43,651 bases of DNA from contig JAUSDY010000066.1 of assembly GCA_030650395.1 (NCBI GenBank), positions 1-43,651 on the forward strand. Reading direction: 5' to 3'. The DNA is from Acidobacteriota bacterium. Its GTDB lineage: Bacteria; Acidobacteriota; Vicinamibacteria; Vicinamibacterales; UBA2999. The translations under genes were made by a program, and so were the position numbers. Shown here piece after piece: positions 13,385 to 41,620 of the stretch. Each line of letters starts with the position of its first letter. Within the stretch, counting starts at the first letter, position 1. Below the pieces are notes generated by a model that saw only the letters and a program-made list of their open reading frames with translations, did no database searches and was not told where the DNA came from.

Positions 13385-13423
13385 GGTTGTCCGCCGTAGC
13401 TTTAGCGAAGGCGGACCACAACC
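13385..13423. repeat. Palindromic repeat, GTCCGCC-GTAGC family
   Basis: GGTTGTCCGCC (13385-13395) faces GGCGGAC-C-ACAACC (13410-13423); the centre GTAGCTTTAGCGAA has a smaller GCT/AGC pairing. The same centre words recur at 28834-28847 and, degenerate, at 4338-4416. Confidence 0.8.
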
Positions 13424-13459
13424 CAAACAAGCGGCTCAGAAGTTGCAACGCAAATCGGC

Positions 13460-14773
13460 ATGGCTGAGTCACGCCCTTCGACTCGCGAAACATCTAGCTC
13501 GCTCAGGACAGGCCGGCAGCGCCGCCGCTGGCCCTTTTGGGTCAGTCTCGCACTTGGCATCGTCGCCGCCCTGCTGTGGATCGCGCAGGACCAGGAAACT
13601 CTCCGCGTCAAGAGTCCCGTCGAAGCCTCGGATCCCGGGTTCGCCGACTATGTCGCGTCGCTGCTTGGTGCGCCGGTTGAAATCGGCGACGCCTACACGG
13701 TGCTCCGCAACGGCGATGAGGCCTTTCCAGCCATGCTCGACGCCATCGAGCGGGCGCGATCACGAATTGTCTTTGAGTCGTATGTCGTCAAGGACGGCGA
13801 GATTGGCGCGCGATGGGCGGCCGCGCTCGAGGCCGCGGCAAAACGCGGGGTGACGGTTCGTGTGGTGCTCGACAGTATCGGCTCGGCCCTGTCCGCGAAG
13901 ACTCAGGATCGCCTCGAGGCGGCGGGCGTCCAGGTCCTCTGGTTTAACCCGGTTCGGTTCTGGCAACTCGAAGAAACCAACTACCGGGATCACCGCAAGG
14001 TGCTGGTCGTCGACGGCGACGTCGGCTTCATCGGCGGCATGGGGATCGTCGATCAATGGCTGGGGCATGCGGAAGACAAGGCGCATTGGCGTGACACGCA
14101 GTTCAAGATCGTCGGCCCGGCGGTGCGTGCGCTCGAAGCGAGTTTCTACGAGAACTGGCTGGAATCAGGTGGCGAATCGGCGCCGGTCCTTGACCCCGAG
14201 CTGCCAGCCCAGGAGACCGGCGCCAGGTCCATTGTGGTGCGCAGCAATGCGATCAGCGGCGCCAGCAACATCAAGCTGCTATATCTGCTCGCCATCGCCG
14301 GCGCCAGAAAAACCATCGACATTCACTCGCCGTACGTGACGCTCGATCCGTCCTCGCGCTGGAGCCTGGAGGAAGCCCGGCGGCGGGGCGTGAGGGTGCG
14401 GCTCGTTGCCGAGAGCGAGGGTACCGACGCCATGCCGGTGAAGCACTCGATCCGGCATCAATATCAAGAGCTGCTCGACGCCGGCTTCGAGATCGCCGAG
14501 TACCAGCCCACCATGATGCACGTTAAGGCCTTGATCATCGACGGGGTCTTCAGCCTGATCGGCTCGGCCAACTTCGGCAACCGGTCGTTCGAGGTGAACG
14601 ACGAGCTGACCGTCGCCGCGGCGGACGCGGAGCTGGCCGCGACTTTGACCAGCCACTTCGAGGACGACCTGCGCCGCTCGAAGAAGCTCGACGCCAGGAC
14701 CTGGAAGGATCAGCGGTCGATCGTCGGCAAGGCGCAGGAATTCTTCTGGAGCTTCTTCGGCGAAATTTTCTAG
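13460..14773 (+). CDS. Phospholipase D / cardiolipin synthase-like membrane protein
   Basis: 437 residues, start ATG 13460. One N-terminal membrane anchor (residues about 25-41, PFWVSLALGIVAALLWIA). Two HKD active-site motifs, as needed for activity: HRKVLVVDGDVGFIGG and HVKALIIDGVFSLIGSANF, each followed by the usual GG or GSAN. Most likely joins or exchanges phospholipid head groups (cardiolipin synthesis), though other PLD activities are possible. Residues 5-19 (RPSTRETSSSLRTGR) are encoded by a dispersed palindromic element. Its stop overlaps that of a paralogous gene on the other strand. Confidence 0.88.
   Translation: MAESRPSTRETSSSLRTGRQRRRWPFWVSLALGIVAALLWIAQDQETLRVKSPVEASDPGFADYVASLLGAPVEIGDAYTVLRNGDEAFPAMLDAIERARSRIVFESYVVKDGEIGARWAAALEAAAKRGVTVRVVLDSIGSALSAKTQDRLEAAGVQVLWFNPVRFWQLEETNYRDHRKVLVVDGDVGFIGGMGIVDQWLGHAEDKAHWRDTQFKIVGPAVRALEASFYENWLESGGESAPVLDPELPAQETGARSIVVRSNAISGASNIKLLYLLAIAGARKTIDIHSPYVTLDPSSRWSLEEARRRGVRVRLVAESEGTDAMPVKHSIRHQYQELLDAGFEIAEYQPTMMHVKALIIDGVFSLIGSANFGNRSFEVNDELTVAAADAELAATLTSHFEDDLRRSKKLDARTWKDQRSIVGKAQEFFWSFFGEIF
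13473..13514. repeat. Dispersed element GCCCTTCGACT...GCTCAGGACAGGCC, inside a coding region
   Basis: Left end GCCCTTCGACTCGC (13473-13486), right end GCTCGCTCAGGACAGGCC (13497-13514), with a short non-conserved middle. The same two ends occur at 19622-19675 and, inverted, at 41562-41620. Here the reading frame passes straight through it. Confidence 0.8.
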
Positions 14774-19542: not shown

Positions 19543-19576
19543 GGCAAAAAGTATCCTATATTCTCGCCATGCGCAC
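19535..19576. promoter_or_regulatory. Inverted repeat covering both start codons of a divergent gene pair
   Basis: GTGCGCATGGC (19535-19545) and GCCATGCGCAC (19566-19576) are perfect inverted copies. Only 26 bp lie between the two ATGs, and the 20 bp centre is AT-rich (AAAAAGTATCCTATATTCTC). Any two promoters here must overlap each other or lie inside the genes. Confidence 0.6.
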
Positions 19577-22500
19577 AGCAGCTCTTGCCGCCGCCGTTGT
19601 TCTTCTCCTGTCGGGTCCGTGGCCCTTCGACTCGCGCGTGAGCGCGAGCCCTCGCGCGCTCGCTCAGGGCGGGCCGGCGGGGTTCGATCCGGGTTTGTTT
19701 CGCGAAATGCAGTGGCGGAACATTGGCCCGCACCGTGCCAGCCGGACCAAGGCGCTCGACGGCGTGCCCGGGCAGCCTCACACGTTTTACATCGGCGTCG
19801 TGAACGGCGGGGTCTGGAAGACCACCGATGCCGGGCGCACCTGGATCCCGATTTTCGATGACCAGCCGACCGGTTCGATCGGCGCGCTGGCGGTCGCGCC
19901 TTCGAATCCCAACGTGATCTACGTCGGAACCGGCGAGGCGCAGCAGCGCCCGGACCTGGCCACCGGCGATGGCATCTACAAGTCCACCGACGCCGGCAAG
20001 ACCTGGACGCACCTCGGGCTCCGCGACACGCAACAAATCGCGCAGGTCGTGATCGATCCGAAGAATGCGGATCGCCTGTTCGTGGCTGCGCTCGGGCATC
20101 CCTACGGGCCCAACACCGAGCGCGGTATTTTCCGATCGGTTGACGGCGGCAAGAGCTTCGAACGCGTGCTCTACAAGGATGAGAACACCGGCGGCGTCGA
20201 CGTCCTGCTCGATCCATCCAACCCCAACGTGGTGTACGCGTCGATGTGGCAGGCGCGGCAGGGGCCCTGGGAAAACGGGGCCTTCAGCGGCCCGAACAGC
20301 GGCCTCTTCAAGTCCGGCGACGGTGGGACGACCTGGCGCCAGCTCACAACGGGCCTGCCGACCTGGGACGCCGATCGCATCGGCCGCATCGGCATCGGCA
20401 TTGCGCCGAGCCGCCCGTCGCGGTTGTTCGCCATCGTCGAGGCGCGCAGTCCCGGCGTGTTCCGATCGGATGACTCGGGCGAAACCTGGACGCGCGTCAA
20501 CAGCGACCCGCGCGTGCTCGCGCGCCCATCCGACGCGAGCGACGTCCGCGTGCACCCGACCAATCCCGACATCGTGATCGTGCCGACCATCGTGACCTGG
20601 AAGTCGACCGACGGCGGCCGGACGTTTACCGCTATTCGCGGGGCGCCGGGCGGCGACGACTATCAGAAGGCGTGGTTCAACCCGGCCAATCCGGACATCC
20701 TTGCCATGACATCAGATCAAGGTGCGGTGATCTCGTTGAACGGCGGCGAGTCGTGGAGCAGCTGGTACAACCAGCCGACCGCGGCGTTCTATCACGTCAG
20801 CACCGACAACGCGTTTCCGTACCGCGTCTGCAGCGGCCAGCAGGAGAGCGGCTCCGCGTGCGTGCAGAGCCGCGGCGATCACGGTCAGATCACGTTCCGC
20901 GAATGGTCGCCGGTTGGCGTCGAAGAGTACGGCTACGTCGCGCCCGACCCGCTGGATCCCGACATCGTCTACGGCGGCAAGGTTTCGAAGTGGGATCGAC
21001 GAACCGGGCAGGTCCAGCAGGTTGGCCCGAAGTTCGGCCGCGACCCCGGGTACCGCGTGGTCCGGACCATGCCTGTGTTGTTCTCGCCGGTTAATCCACG
21101 CAAGTTGTACTTCTCCTCCAACGTGTTGTGGCAGACGCTGAACGGTGGGCAGTCGTGGCAGCAGATCAGCCCCGACCTGACGCGCAAGACGTGGCAGATC
21201 CCGAAGAACGTCGGCATCTATACGAGCCTGCCCGAGGCCCAGGCCACGCAGCGAGGCGTGATCTATACGATCGCGCCGTCCTATACAGACGAACGCACGA
21301 TCTGGGTGGGGACCGACGATGGGCTGATTCACGTGACGCGCGATGGCGGGGGCACGTGGCAAGACGTCACGCCGCCGGCGCTGACGCCCTGGTCGAAGGT
21401 GTCGATCGTGGACGCATCACATTTCGATGCCAGCACCGCGTATGCGGCGATCAACACCATCCGGCTCGACGACCTGCGGCCGCATATCTATCGCACGCGC
21501 GACGGCGGCAAGTCGTGGTCGCACATCACGGCCGGCATCCCCGACGGCGCCATCATCAACGTGGTGCGCGAGGATCCGAAGCGGCGAGGCTTGTTGTTCG
21601 CGGGCGGCGAGCAGACCGTGTATGTCTCGTTCGACGACGGCGAGCATTGGCAGTCGCTGCGAAACAACCTGCCGGCCACCTCGGTGCGCGACCTGGTGAT
21701 CAAAGACGACGATCTGGTGATCGGCACGCACGGGCGGTCGTTTTACATTCTCGACGACATTACGCCGCTCCGGCAGATCGCCGCCGCGACGACGTCCGAG
21801 GATGTTCACTTGTTCGCGCCGCAACAGGCGTGGCGCTTCCGGTGGAACAAGAACACCGACACGCCGCTGCCGCCGGACGAGCCGGCGGGTCAGAATCCGC
21901 CTGATGGCGCGATCGTGCATTACTACCTGCGGAACGCGTCGCGGGCTCCAGTGATTCTGGAGATCCTCGATGCGAGTGGCGCGCTCGTGCGCCGGTACTC
22001 GAGTGCCGATCCGGTCGAGCCGCTCGTCGAGGGACGAAACACGCCCGACTACTGGATCCGCCCTCACCGCCCGCTGTCGAGCACCGCCGGGTTGCATCGA
22101 TTCGTGTGGGACGTGCACCACGATCGTCCGGCGGTGGGGAGCTTCAGTTATCCGATCTCCGCGGTGCTCGCGAACACGCCTCGCACGCCGGCGGGGTCAT
22201 GGGCAGTGCCGGGGACCTACACCGCGCGACTCACCGTAGATGGAAAGTCGGTGACGCAGCCGCTGGTAGTGAAGATCGATCCGCGAGTGAAGGCCACGGC
22301 CGCCGACCTCAAGCTGCAGTACGACACGTCGCGCGCGATCGACGCCGCCATGCGGCGCATCGCGGATGCGCTGAGAGAGATTCGGGCCGTGACGCCAAAG
22401 ACGCCGCAGCAGACGGAGATGGAACAGCGACTCACGCGCGCAAGCGCACCCCTCGGGCAATTGTTTGGTGCGGTGGAAGCAACCGATGCCCGGCCCATGC

Positions 22501-22589
22501 CGGTCTTGCTCGAGGCATGGAAGGCGGCCGCAGCCGCGGTGCAGGAAGCGACGGCGGCGTGGGAAAAAATGAAGGCCGGGCCCAGGTAG
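19569..22589 (+). CDS. Large secreted BNR/sortilin-like beta-propeller protein
   Basis: 1006 residues. Signal peptide of residues 1-33 (MRTAALAAAVVLLLSG...ALAQ). Many BNR/Asp-box repeats of the form GIYKSTDAGKTWTHL, GIFRSVDGGKSF, GLFKSGDGGTTW, VTRDGGGTWQDV, IYRTRDGGKSWSHI, spread over residues about 50-720, then a C-terminal region with a FlgD-like or FN3-like piece (PGTYTARLTVDGKSVTQPL). Databases often call such proteins glycosyl hydrolases; no hydrolase site is apparent, and binding or scaffolding of proteins or glycans is as likely. The signal-peptide end is encoded by a palindromic element. Confidence 0.88.
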   Translation: MRTAALAAAVVLLLSGPWPFDSRVSASPRALAQGGPAGFDPGLFREMQWRNIGPHRASRTKALDGVPGQPHTFYIGVVNGGVWKTTDAGRTWIPIFDDQPTGSIGALAVAPSNPNVIYVGTGEAQQRPDLATGDGIYKSTDAGKTWTHLGLRDTQQIAQVVIDPKNADRLFVAALGHPYGPNTERGIFRSVDGGKSFERVLYKDENTGGVDVLLDPSNPNVVYASMWQARQGPWENGAFSGPNSGLFKSGDGGTTWRQLTTGLPTWDADRIGRIGIGIAPSRPSRLFAIVEARSPGVFRSDDSGETWTRVNSDPRVLARPSDASDVRVHPTNPDIVIVPTIVTWKSTDGGRTFTAIRGAPGGDDYQKAWFNPANPDILAMTSDQGAVISLNGGESWSSWYNQPTAAFYHVSTDNAFPYRVCSGQQESGSACVQSRGDHGQITFREWSPVGVEEYGYVAPDPLDPDIVYGGKVSKWDRRTGQVQQVGPKFGRDPGYRVVRTMPVLFSPVNPRKLYFSSNVLWQTLNGGQSWQQISPDLTRKTWQIPKNVGIYTSLPEAQATQRGVIYTIAPSYTDERTIWVGTDDGLIHVTRDGGGTWQDVTPPALTPWSKVSIVDASHFDASTAYAAINTIRLDDLRPHIYRTRDGGKSWSHITAGIPDGAIINVVREDPKRRGLLFAGGEQTVYVSFDDGEHWQSLRNNLPATSVRDLVIKDDDLVIGTHGRSFYILDDITPLRQIAAATTSEDVHLFAPQQAWRFRWNKNTDTPLPPDEPAGQNPPDGAIVHYYLRNASRAPVILEILDASGALVRRYSSADPVEPLVEGRNTPDYWIRPHRPLSSTAGLHRFVWDVHHDRPAVGSFSYPISAVLANTPRTPAGSWAVPGTYTARLTVDGKSVTQPLVVKIDPRVKATAADLKLQYDTSRAIDAAMRRIADALREIRAVTPKTPQQTEMEQRLTRASAPLGQLFGAVEATDARPMPVLLEAWKAAAAAVQEATAAWEKMKAGPR
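19622..19675. repeat. Dispersed element GCCCTTCGACT...GCTCAGGGCGGGCC within a signal-peptide coding region
   Basis: Left end GCCCTTCGACTCGCG (19622-19636), internal GCGCGTGAGCGCG palindrome, right end GCGCTCGCTCAGGGCGGGCC (19656-19675). Related to 13473-13514 and 41562-41620. In frame it encodes residues 18-36, including the predicted cleavage sequence RALAQ. Confidence 0.78.
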
Positions 22590-28801: not shown

Positions 28802-28853
28802 GTTAGCCTTGGCGACACGCGGGCTCGTCCCCCGTAGCCTTGGCGAAGGGGGA
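28802..28853. repeat. GTAGCCTTGGCGAA palindromic repeat, one full and one partial copy
   Basis: Full copy: TCCCCC (28828-28833), GTAGCCTTGGCGAA (28834-28847), GGGGGA (28848-28853). A partial copy GTTAGCCTTGGCGA lies at 28803-28816. Same family as 13385-13423 (centre GTAGCTTTAGCGAA) but with different arms (C/G runs), so the arms changed together while pairing was kept. Confidence 0.8.
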
Positions 28854-32567: not shown

Positions 32568-32603
32568 CGGTCGAAATCCTTTGGGAAACTTTAATCGTAG
32601 CAT

Positions 32604-32736
32604 GGAGGTTCCTCACGGGGGTTCCCCACGGGGGTTCCAGACGAGGGTTCCAGACGAGGGTTCCAGAACTGCCGCGGAGAACCTTCGTGGGGAACCTTCG
32701 TGGGGAACCCCCGTGAGGAACCCGCGTGCGGAACCC
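32604..32736. repeat. 13 bp-period inverted array (GGTTCC units)
   Basis: Left half: four to five 13 bp units ending in GGTTCC (NNACGNGGGTTCC). Right half: the same units inverted (GGAACCNNCGTNN). The halves share a perfect 24 bp inverted repeat: 32607-32630 with 32699-32722, enclosing about 68 bp of further units. Together they can form one long hairpin in the divergent gap between the PPIase gene and the diguanylate cyclase gene. The remaining gap to 32766 has only a TATATT (32749-32754), a possible -10 box. Confidence 0.9.
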
Positions 32737-40935: not shown

Positions 40936-41053
40936 AAGTTGAAAGTTGGCAGTTGTAAGTTCGAAGTTTCAGTTTAGAGTTCCAAGACGAAAGGCCGGTG
41001 GCCTGAACTCAAAACTGAAACTTCCAACTTTCAACTTTCAACTTTCAACTCAC
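40936..41053. repeat. Long inverted heptamer array between convergent rng and a secreted-protein gene
   Basis: Left half has heptamers NNNAGTT; right half is the complement, ending in three exact AACTTTC units (41026-41046). Paired arms: AAGTTGAAAGTTGG (40936-40949) with 41024-41037 (perfect, 14 bp); 40964-40982 with 41005-41023 (18 of 19); core GGCC-GGT-GGCC (40993-41003). The whole forms a hairpin of about 100 nt. The right end touches the stop codon of the minus-strand gene. Confidence 0.9.
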
Positions 41054-41561: not shown

Positions 41562-41620
41562 GGCCTGTCCTGAGCGAGGCGGAGGCCCGGCGAAGCCGGG
41601 CTTCCGCAGAGTCGAAGGGC
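41562..41620. repeat. Dispersed element GCCCTTCGACT...GCTCAGGACAGGCC, intergenic, inverted copy
   Basis: On the plus strand GGCCTGTCCTGAGCGA (41562-41577), an internal hairpin CCCGGCGAAGCCGGG, then GAGTCGAAGGGC (41609-41620). Its end meets the stop codon of the DUF4097 fragment. It is the intergenic relative of the coding copies at 13473 and 19622. Confidence 0.8.

Follow-up and report, generated by a model that had tools for sequence, protein, structure and literature searches.

A palindromic element in frame in a Sortilin/Vps10-type gene of an acidobacterium belongs to a genome-wide family and probably supplies a signal-peptidase site

The window analyzed here, a stretch of 43,651 nucleotides from an Acidobacteriota bacterium of the order Vicinamibacterales, carries a gene for a Sortilin/Vps10-type BNR protein of 1006 amino acids (19569..22589, + strand), assigned from its open reading frame (ORF), from Pfam matches to PF15902 and PF02012, and from orthologues in congeners. 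Near the start of this gene lies a palindromic element (19623..19674, + strand), delimited by its sequence, by a genome-wide family of copies, and by the empty sites of the orthologues in two congeners, G008 and G007. It is made up of CC, a 44-nt core (19625-19668), and the 6-nt tail GCGGGC, and it encodes residues 19 to 35 of the protein, PFDSRVSASPRALAQGG. The first-pass annotation had described a dispersed element with two ends at 19622-19675, in frame at codons 18 to 36. Both end words are there and in frame in the BNR ORF (GCCCTTCGACT at 19622-19632 and GCTCAGGGC at 19662-19670), and their enrichment elsewhere in the genome is borne out by 95 copies against none for the reversed pattern; the claim of in-frame placement stands, while the limits are better set at 19623-19674 and residues 19 to 35. 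The stem of this copy is palindromic yet imperfect, less perfect than that of most copies.

Two further copies lie in the window, which thus holds 3 of the 95 (cores 13476-13507 and 19625-19668 on the + strand and 41569-41617 on the - strand). The second (13474..13513, +) is in the N-terminal tail of a PLD-domain protein, in the frame MAESRPSTRETSSSLRTGR; its host ORF (13406-14770) has a Pfam match to PLDc_2. The third (41563..41619, -) directly follows a TAG stop codon on its own strand and is probably not coding, being spanned only by an 87-amino-acid frame. Within the window, the left end word occurs six times with at most one mismatch, against 1.1 expected; GCTCAGGGC occurs once, in no excess over chance (at least one occurrence in 46 of 100 shuffles). 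Because the right word is only at chance level here, the case for the element rests on the genome and not on the window. The window also contains two copies (13391-13411 and 28829-28849) of a second palindromic family, CCRCCGTAGCYTYRGCGRAGG, which has 82 matches in the genome with at most two mismatches and none for the reversed control, as well as two large inverted repeats of short tandem words at 32600-32735 and 40936-41050 (GGTTCC..CACGGG and AGTTGAAAGTT..).

Comparison of the genome under study (G000; 5.41 Mb in 180 contigs) with its congeners G001, G005, G007, and G008 places the element at the end of a predicted signal peptide. The BNR protein of G000 begins MRTAALAAAVVLLLSGPW-PFDSRVSASPRALAQGG-PAGFDPGLF, with GPW directly before the element. 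Its G008 orthologue reads MRSALTLAAVVLATSMGW-PAAQAQG-PAAFDPGLF, an empty site with a native AQAQG and with MGW before PAAQAQG; in the alignment of orthologues that had been proposed as a check, the segment is accordingly absent from this protein. The G007 orthologue, MRKTIIAVAVAAASLTWPGVLAQGPLPDFREM, is likewise without the element. In G001 the protein reads MRKALLLGAVAVVAFAGW-PVAVAQG-PFDAAQDDAQGR-PAAFDPGLF, with another family copy directly after the native AVAQG; since this copy has the same right junction as that of G000, the insertion may predate G000, and loss of the native site would then be a later deletion. In G005 (...WLNARAQGPVGLDPGL-SSVALAKED-LFREL), a copy of the second palindromic family follows a few residues on; SSVALAKED is encoded in frame by a relative of that family (locus L033).

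The native AxAQG is missing from the G000 protein, where the element has ALAQG as its right end. Read from the sequence, the protein has the makeup of a Sec signal peptide, with a hydrophobic core (LAAAVVLLLSG) followed by the A-x-A-like sites VSA/S and ALA/Q (the slash marks the cleavage point), both inside the element. Under the (-3,-1) rule for signal-peptidase sites, MRTAALAAAVVLLLSGPW together with the element would form a predicted signal peptide at 19569..19664 (+), with proposed cleavage at ALA/Q after residue 32, inside the element. The right end of the element, read as ALAQG, would stand in for the lost native AxAQG, and the BNR protein should therefore still be exported and cut at a site encoded by the repeat. 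We consider it probable, from these sequence comparisons, that the element supplies the cleavage site. The LAQG peptide is general and not specific to this site, LAQG, FAQG, or VAQG being the usual ending of copies in this frame whose core length is 2 mod 3; what is special at the BNR site is that LAQG falls where the native AxAQG stood.

Other copies were also found at signal peptides. In an SGL-family protein of G000 (STAAVATG-PFDSLRENALLAQGGQ-PAPPVVAETTATA), PFDSLRENALLAQGGQ occupies the place of the native FAQ, LAQ, or AAQ ends of four congeners (AAAQGQPPPV, ALAQAPAAPV, FAQAPAPV, and FAQGQPPPA at the same site); the upstream AVA/T may still serve as a cleavage site in this protein. In an S9 peptidase the element lies directly after ALAQ (ALAQ-PFDSAANNGGVAQGRR-ATFDD, the G001 counterpart being ALAQNRAATFDD). 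Counted by eye, the ORFs in which a copy coincides with an N-terminal hydrophobic stretch or closely follows one number about eight. The idea, prompted by AQG at signal peptides, that insertion is targeted by likeness to the right end of the element was dropped: GCNCAGG-like words were found in the 30 nt to the left of 3 of the 95 copies, against 1.7 expected, and once on the right.

The genome-wide family was defined with the pattern CTTCGACT N2-32 TCGCTCAGG, which has 95 matches in the 5.41-Mb genome and none when reversed; the pattern CCCTTCGAC N5-34 GCTCAGGG has 76 matches in the same genome, again with none for its reverse. The consensus of the 95 copies is CC-CTTCGACTC-(7 to 31 nt)-TCGCTCAGG-RCAGGC. 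The search itself fixed only the inner ends and left free both the outer CC (95 and 92 of 95) and the final five tail letters (74 to 90 of 95, column by column). Cores measure 25 to 49 nt and insertions about 33 to 57 nt. The BNR segment is one of these copies and very probably a small, nonautonomous, mobile palindromic element inserted in frame. The element would have spread through this acidobacterial lineage, with copies inside genes surviving when the reading frame was kept.

Many copies lie inside protein genes, even essential ones. For 81 of the 95 copies, the ORF with the best score runs across the element, and 51 copies score as coding on either side within one open frame (37 in a stricter first pass). 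The first classifier missed the BNR copy; the second includes weak cases, such as the 87-amino-acid frame at 41569, and still omits the BNR copy on account of the negative score of its short upstream flank. Spanning ORFs were taken from stop to stop, so that N-terminal cases may precede the true start. Among the 50 spanning ORFs scanned (52 copies), 47 have a Pfam match at an E value of 0.001 or better; the hosts so recognized include PheS, PheT, GyrB, PriA, a RecN-like protein, Mfd, MetH, a MiaB-type enzyme, and MnmA, as well as an ETF subunit, a lipoyl ligase, an E2 acyltransferase, a nickel insertion protein, a penicillin amidase, and a P450. In 11 cases the element lies inside a single Pfam alignment above the cutoff, as in PheS (residues 290-303 within 124-404).

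When the joined flanks of copies were sought in six congeners, 53 copy-genome pairs involving 15 copies were obtained; judged by the text pattern, 8 are filled and 45 are without the element. Among the latter, 41 sites are at least 18 nt shorter than in G000, and the remaining four do not count as clean empty sites, one of them, the E2 site of G008, holding a decayed copy. As kept reading frames require, the difference in length is divisible by 3 in 41 of the 45 element-free pairs and in 47 of all 53. The PheS and MnmA copies are common to G000 and G001. Three simple accounts of these copies were rejected. A peptide selected in one frame does not fit the spread of the 51 coding copies, with 13, 12, and 10 in the forward frames and 16 in one reverse frame. 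A core length of 2 mod 3 is found in 41 of the 51 coding copies yet also in 29 of the 44 others, and coding alone thus does not explain it. Finally, no match that would indicate arms copied from the target gene was seen by eye at the PheS and RecN sites compared.

The most striking property of the family, missed by the first-pass annotation, is that stem letters differ between copies while pairing is kept. The 82 interiors of at least 18 nt are paired over a mean fraction of 0.873, compared with 0.431 for shuffles (at most 0.464 in 200) and 0.481 for chimeras whose halves were exchanged between copies; at 70% identity, these interiors fall into 57 clusters, the largest with 9 members. Longer copies from other acidobacterial genomes (52, hand-picked) are similarly paired, at 0.836 against 0.523 in shuffles. 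Such stems could reflect mutation and not selection, if template switching between the arms (quasi-palindrome correction) copied each change to the other arm, so that fixed copies drift but stay palindromes. This would account for the occurrence of all four Watson-Crick pairs at 10 of 13 stem positions among 26 distinct 47-nt copies. It would also account for the copies in the E2 linker of G000, G005, G007, and G008, which have the same length and frame and show changes on both sides at 6 of 13 tabulated pairs though they are, on a tentative reading, a single old insertion. Against it, fixed ends with free stems suit recognition of the ends by a protein, and arm-to-arm copying alone predicts no strand bias for the more stable mismatches, a bias that is seen here (see below). 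We regard template switching as less likely than not, though it is the strongest of the alternatives. A coding mobile hairpin recognized by its shape, through a constant foot, bulges, and tag, is put forward equally tentatively; each copy would have its upper stem either built anew or rebuilt by copying from one arm to the other. If it were true, the core proteins of such hosts would keep gaining peptides of 10 to 20 residues, ready-made signal-peptidase sites among them, with freely varied middles between fixed ends (PFDS...LAQG, LRL...RSGQ, and LSE...RVEG).

The two strands of the element are not equivalent. The reverse strand folds as GCCTG, a foot (CCCT/AGGG), a bulge, CGA/TCG, a second bulge, and a variable stem-loop. 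With DNA parameters it is the more stable strand in 53 of 80 distinct interiors and the less stable in 19 (51 and 15 with RNA parameters). Mismatches on the element strand are A.C in 44 cases and G.T in 13, the former being G.T on the reverse strand; counted by cluster, the bias is 25 to 7 with 25 ties (P = 0.002). The strand bias holds at 20 to 5 where the element strand codes and at 28 to 11 among copies without a coding score; for the 16 copies with the reverse strand as the coding one, it falls short of significance (6 to 3; P = 0.13). By analogy with REP and IS200/IS605 elements as described in PMC8266576, we read this bias as a possible sign of action on one single strand, with an effect through RNA as a less probable reading. 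The recognized form would be the single strand 5'-GCCTG-YCCTGAGCGA-(stem-loop)-GAGTCGAAGGG-3', with its conserved foot, bulges, and 5' tag; an enzyme acting on single-stranded DNA would read these and ignore the letters of the upper stem. Recognition of the element as single-stranded DNA is a reading to which we give slightly less than an even chance.

The same features could mark a true REP family whose tag class is new to description and whose copies depend for movement in trans on an ordinary RAYT of the genome (TnpA-REP, Y1 transposase). The one-strand foot, the bulge, and the 5' tag resemble the bulged REPs described in PMC8266576, and a search for PF01797 in 40 relatives found Y1 transposase genes in 31 of them, with a single one in G000. 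However, the tag GCCTG is neither GTAG nor CGTC, and the Y1 gene of G000 is flanked by long inverted repeats (TTGGGGTCAGG...) and not by the element. When element ends were sought at 30 matching loci, no link to a RAYT, and no mobilizing enzyme, emerged: a copy lay near the Y1 gene at one of them (L090), some 60 further Y1 matches being outside this count. Nor do Y1 and copy numbers go together, with 1 Y1 gene and 100 element copies in G000, 5 and 3 in G008, and 0 and 15 in G039. We consider this REP reading unlikely. The only Y1 gene of G000 (locus L074, about 1260-2400), framed by long inverted repeats TTGGGGTCAGGTCAAGAAAATCACAGTTTGGGATGA, resembles the TIR-flanked Y1 genes described in PMC3733652. 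Inspection of the compared insertion sites by eye showed no target-site duplication.

It is still less probable that the hairpins are kept as RNA structures, for mRNA stability or attenuation, and not for movement. The stems are indeed very stable under RNA parameters (on average -15.9 kcal/mol for one strand and -18.0 kcal/mol for the other, against -5.8 kcal/mol for random 27-mers), and the commonest loop is CTTCG (10 copies); on the other hand, the more stable strand is antisense for 35 of the 51 coding-scored copies, copies lie inside unrelated genes, and orthologues manage without them. An ordinary signal-peptide sequence resembling the element by chance can be excluded, even though AxAQ or AxAQG (coded GCNCAGGG or similar) is a frequent ending of signal peptides in this group, because the two ends with their spacing and inner hairpin are found 95 times, and never with the pattern reversed, and because PFDSRVSASPR is wholly absent from the nearest empty orthologue. 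Overall, the best explanation, and one we think fairly likely, is a mobile palindrome with single-strand DNA recognition, in-frame survival, and a cleavage site at the BNR gene.

Among known systems, the likeness to Rickettsia palindromic elements (RPEs) drawn by the first-pass annotation is apt with respect to in-frame insertion in many unrelated genes. The palindromic elements of Rickettsia and Wolbachia, short hairpin repeats, are described as joined in frame to numerous unrelated genes, conserved ones included, whose products apparently still function (PMC10969869, PMC2229807); the present element behaves likewise, as the 47 Pfam-matched ORFs among 50 and the element-free sites attest. Unlike RPEs, for which these sources give a length of 105 to 150 bp, it makes insertions of about 33 to 57 nt; its host phylum is a different one, and its sequence is presumably unrelated. 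In structure it is closer to REPs, being a hairpin of 20 to 50 nt in high copy number with one tagged end and strand asymmetry; some REPs are reported to lie inside genes, many of them repair genes (PMC3733652). Its tail, RCAGGC (GCCTGY on the reverse strand), nevertheless differs from the GTAG and CGTC tags of REPs, RPE-4 and RPE-6 being counted among the CGTC type. REPs are mostly intergenic, whereas about half of the present copies, or fewer, are outside coding frames, and no linked RAYT flanked by copies was found at the loci searched; the letters of the upper stem are free. The element thus works like RPEs and is structurally like REPs but does not qualify as a REP. As with MITEs, it is small, noncoding, dispersed, and presumably moved in trans; unlike MITEs, it has as terminal inverted repeats just a 4-bp foot and a 3-bp step, without a visible target-site duplication. 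The closest parallel for the BNR gene is YPO1552 of Yersinia, a YPAL/RU-2 fusion in which, according to PMC2229807, the repeat forms part of the predicted signal peptide of an exported protein; that is described as a putative new protein of 144 amino acids, whereas here the cleavage end of the signal peptide appears to be replaced in an old, widespread protein.

The strict pattern is patchily distributed, in 44 of 297 genomes of a phylum sample; a looser pattern, applied to 149 genomes of the order, turns up in 124 of them, in many cases with just one or two matches, which is close to the control level. At least 60 copies are present in G000 and in G330 (82), G186 (73), and G392 (68), the last three belonging to one other family. 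We found no paper describing this element family in the open-access literature, and searches for element words of 12 to 15 letters returned nothing on topic, as judged by title and the start of the abstract. Granulicella aggregans appears in the REP table of PMC12306157, so that copies of this kind may have been included in a survey. Rickettsia and Wolbachia, intracellular bacteria with small genomes, are the best-known hosts of in-frame palindromic elements; the acidobacterial family behaves alike in multimegabase genomes. It offers repeats within PheS, GyrB, PriA, and MnmA together with a probable case of a replaced working part of a protein, and its differing yet paired stems make it possible to test by what means these elements move and whether mutation keeps palindromes paired.

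Some copies have unusual arrangements. In an amidohydrolase gene of G000 (L116) and G001 (L304), copies at the same place have unrelated interiors, and the G001 gene has an extra short copy alongside, with GGGATCCGGGCTCC words around the copies. The genomes G132 and G040 show nested and tandem forms: in the former, the loop of one copy holds the short palindrome in reverse orientation (GCTCGTCCTGAGCCTGTCGAAGGACGAGC), and the latter consist of CCCTTCGA units.
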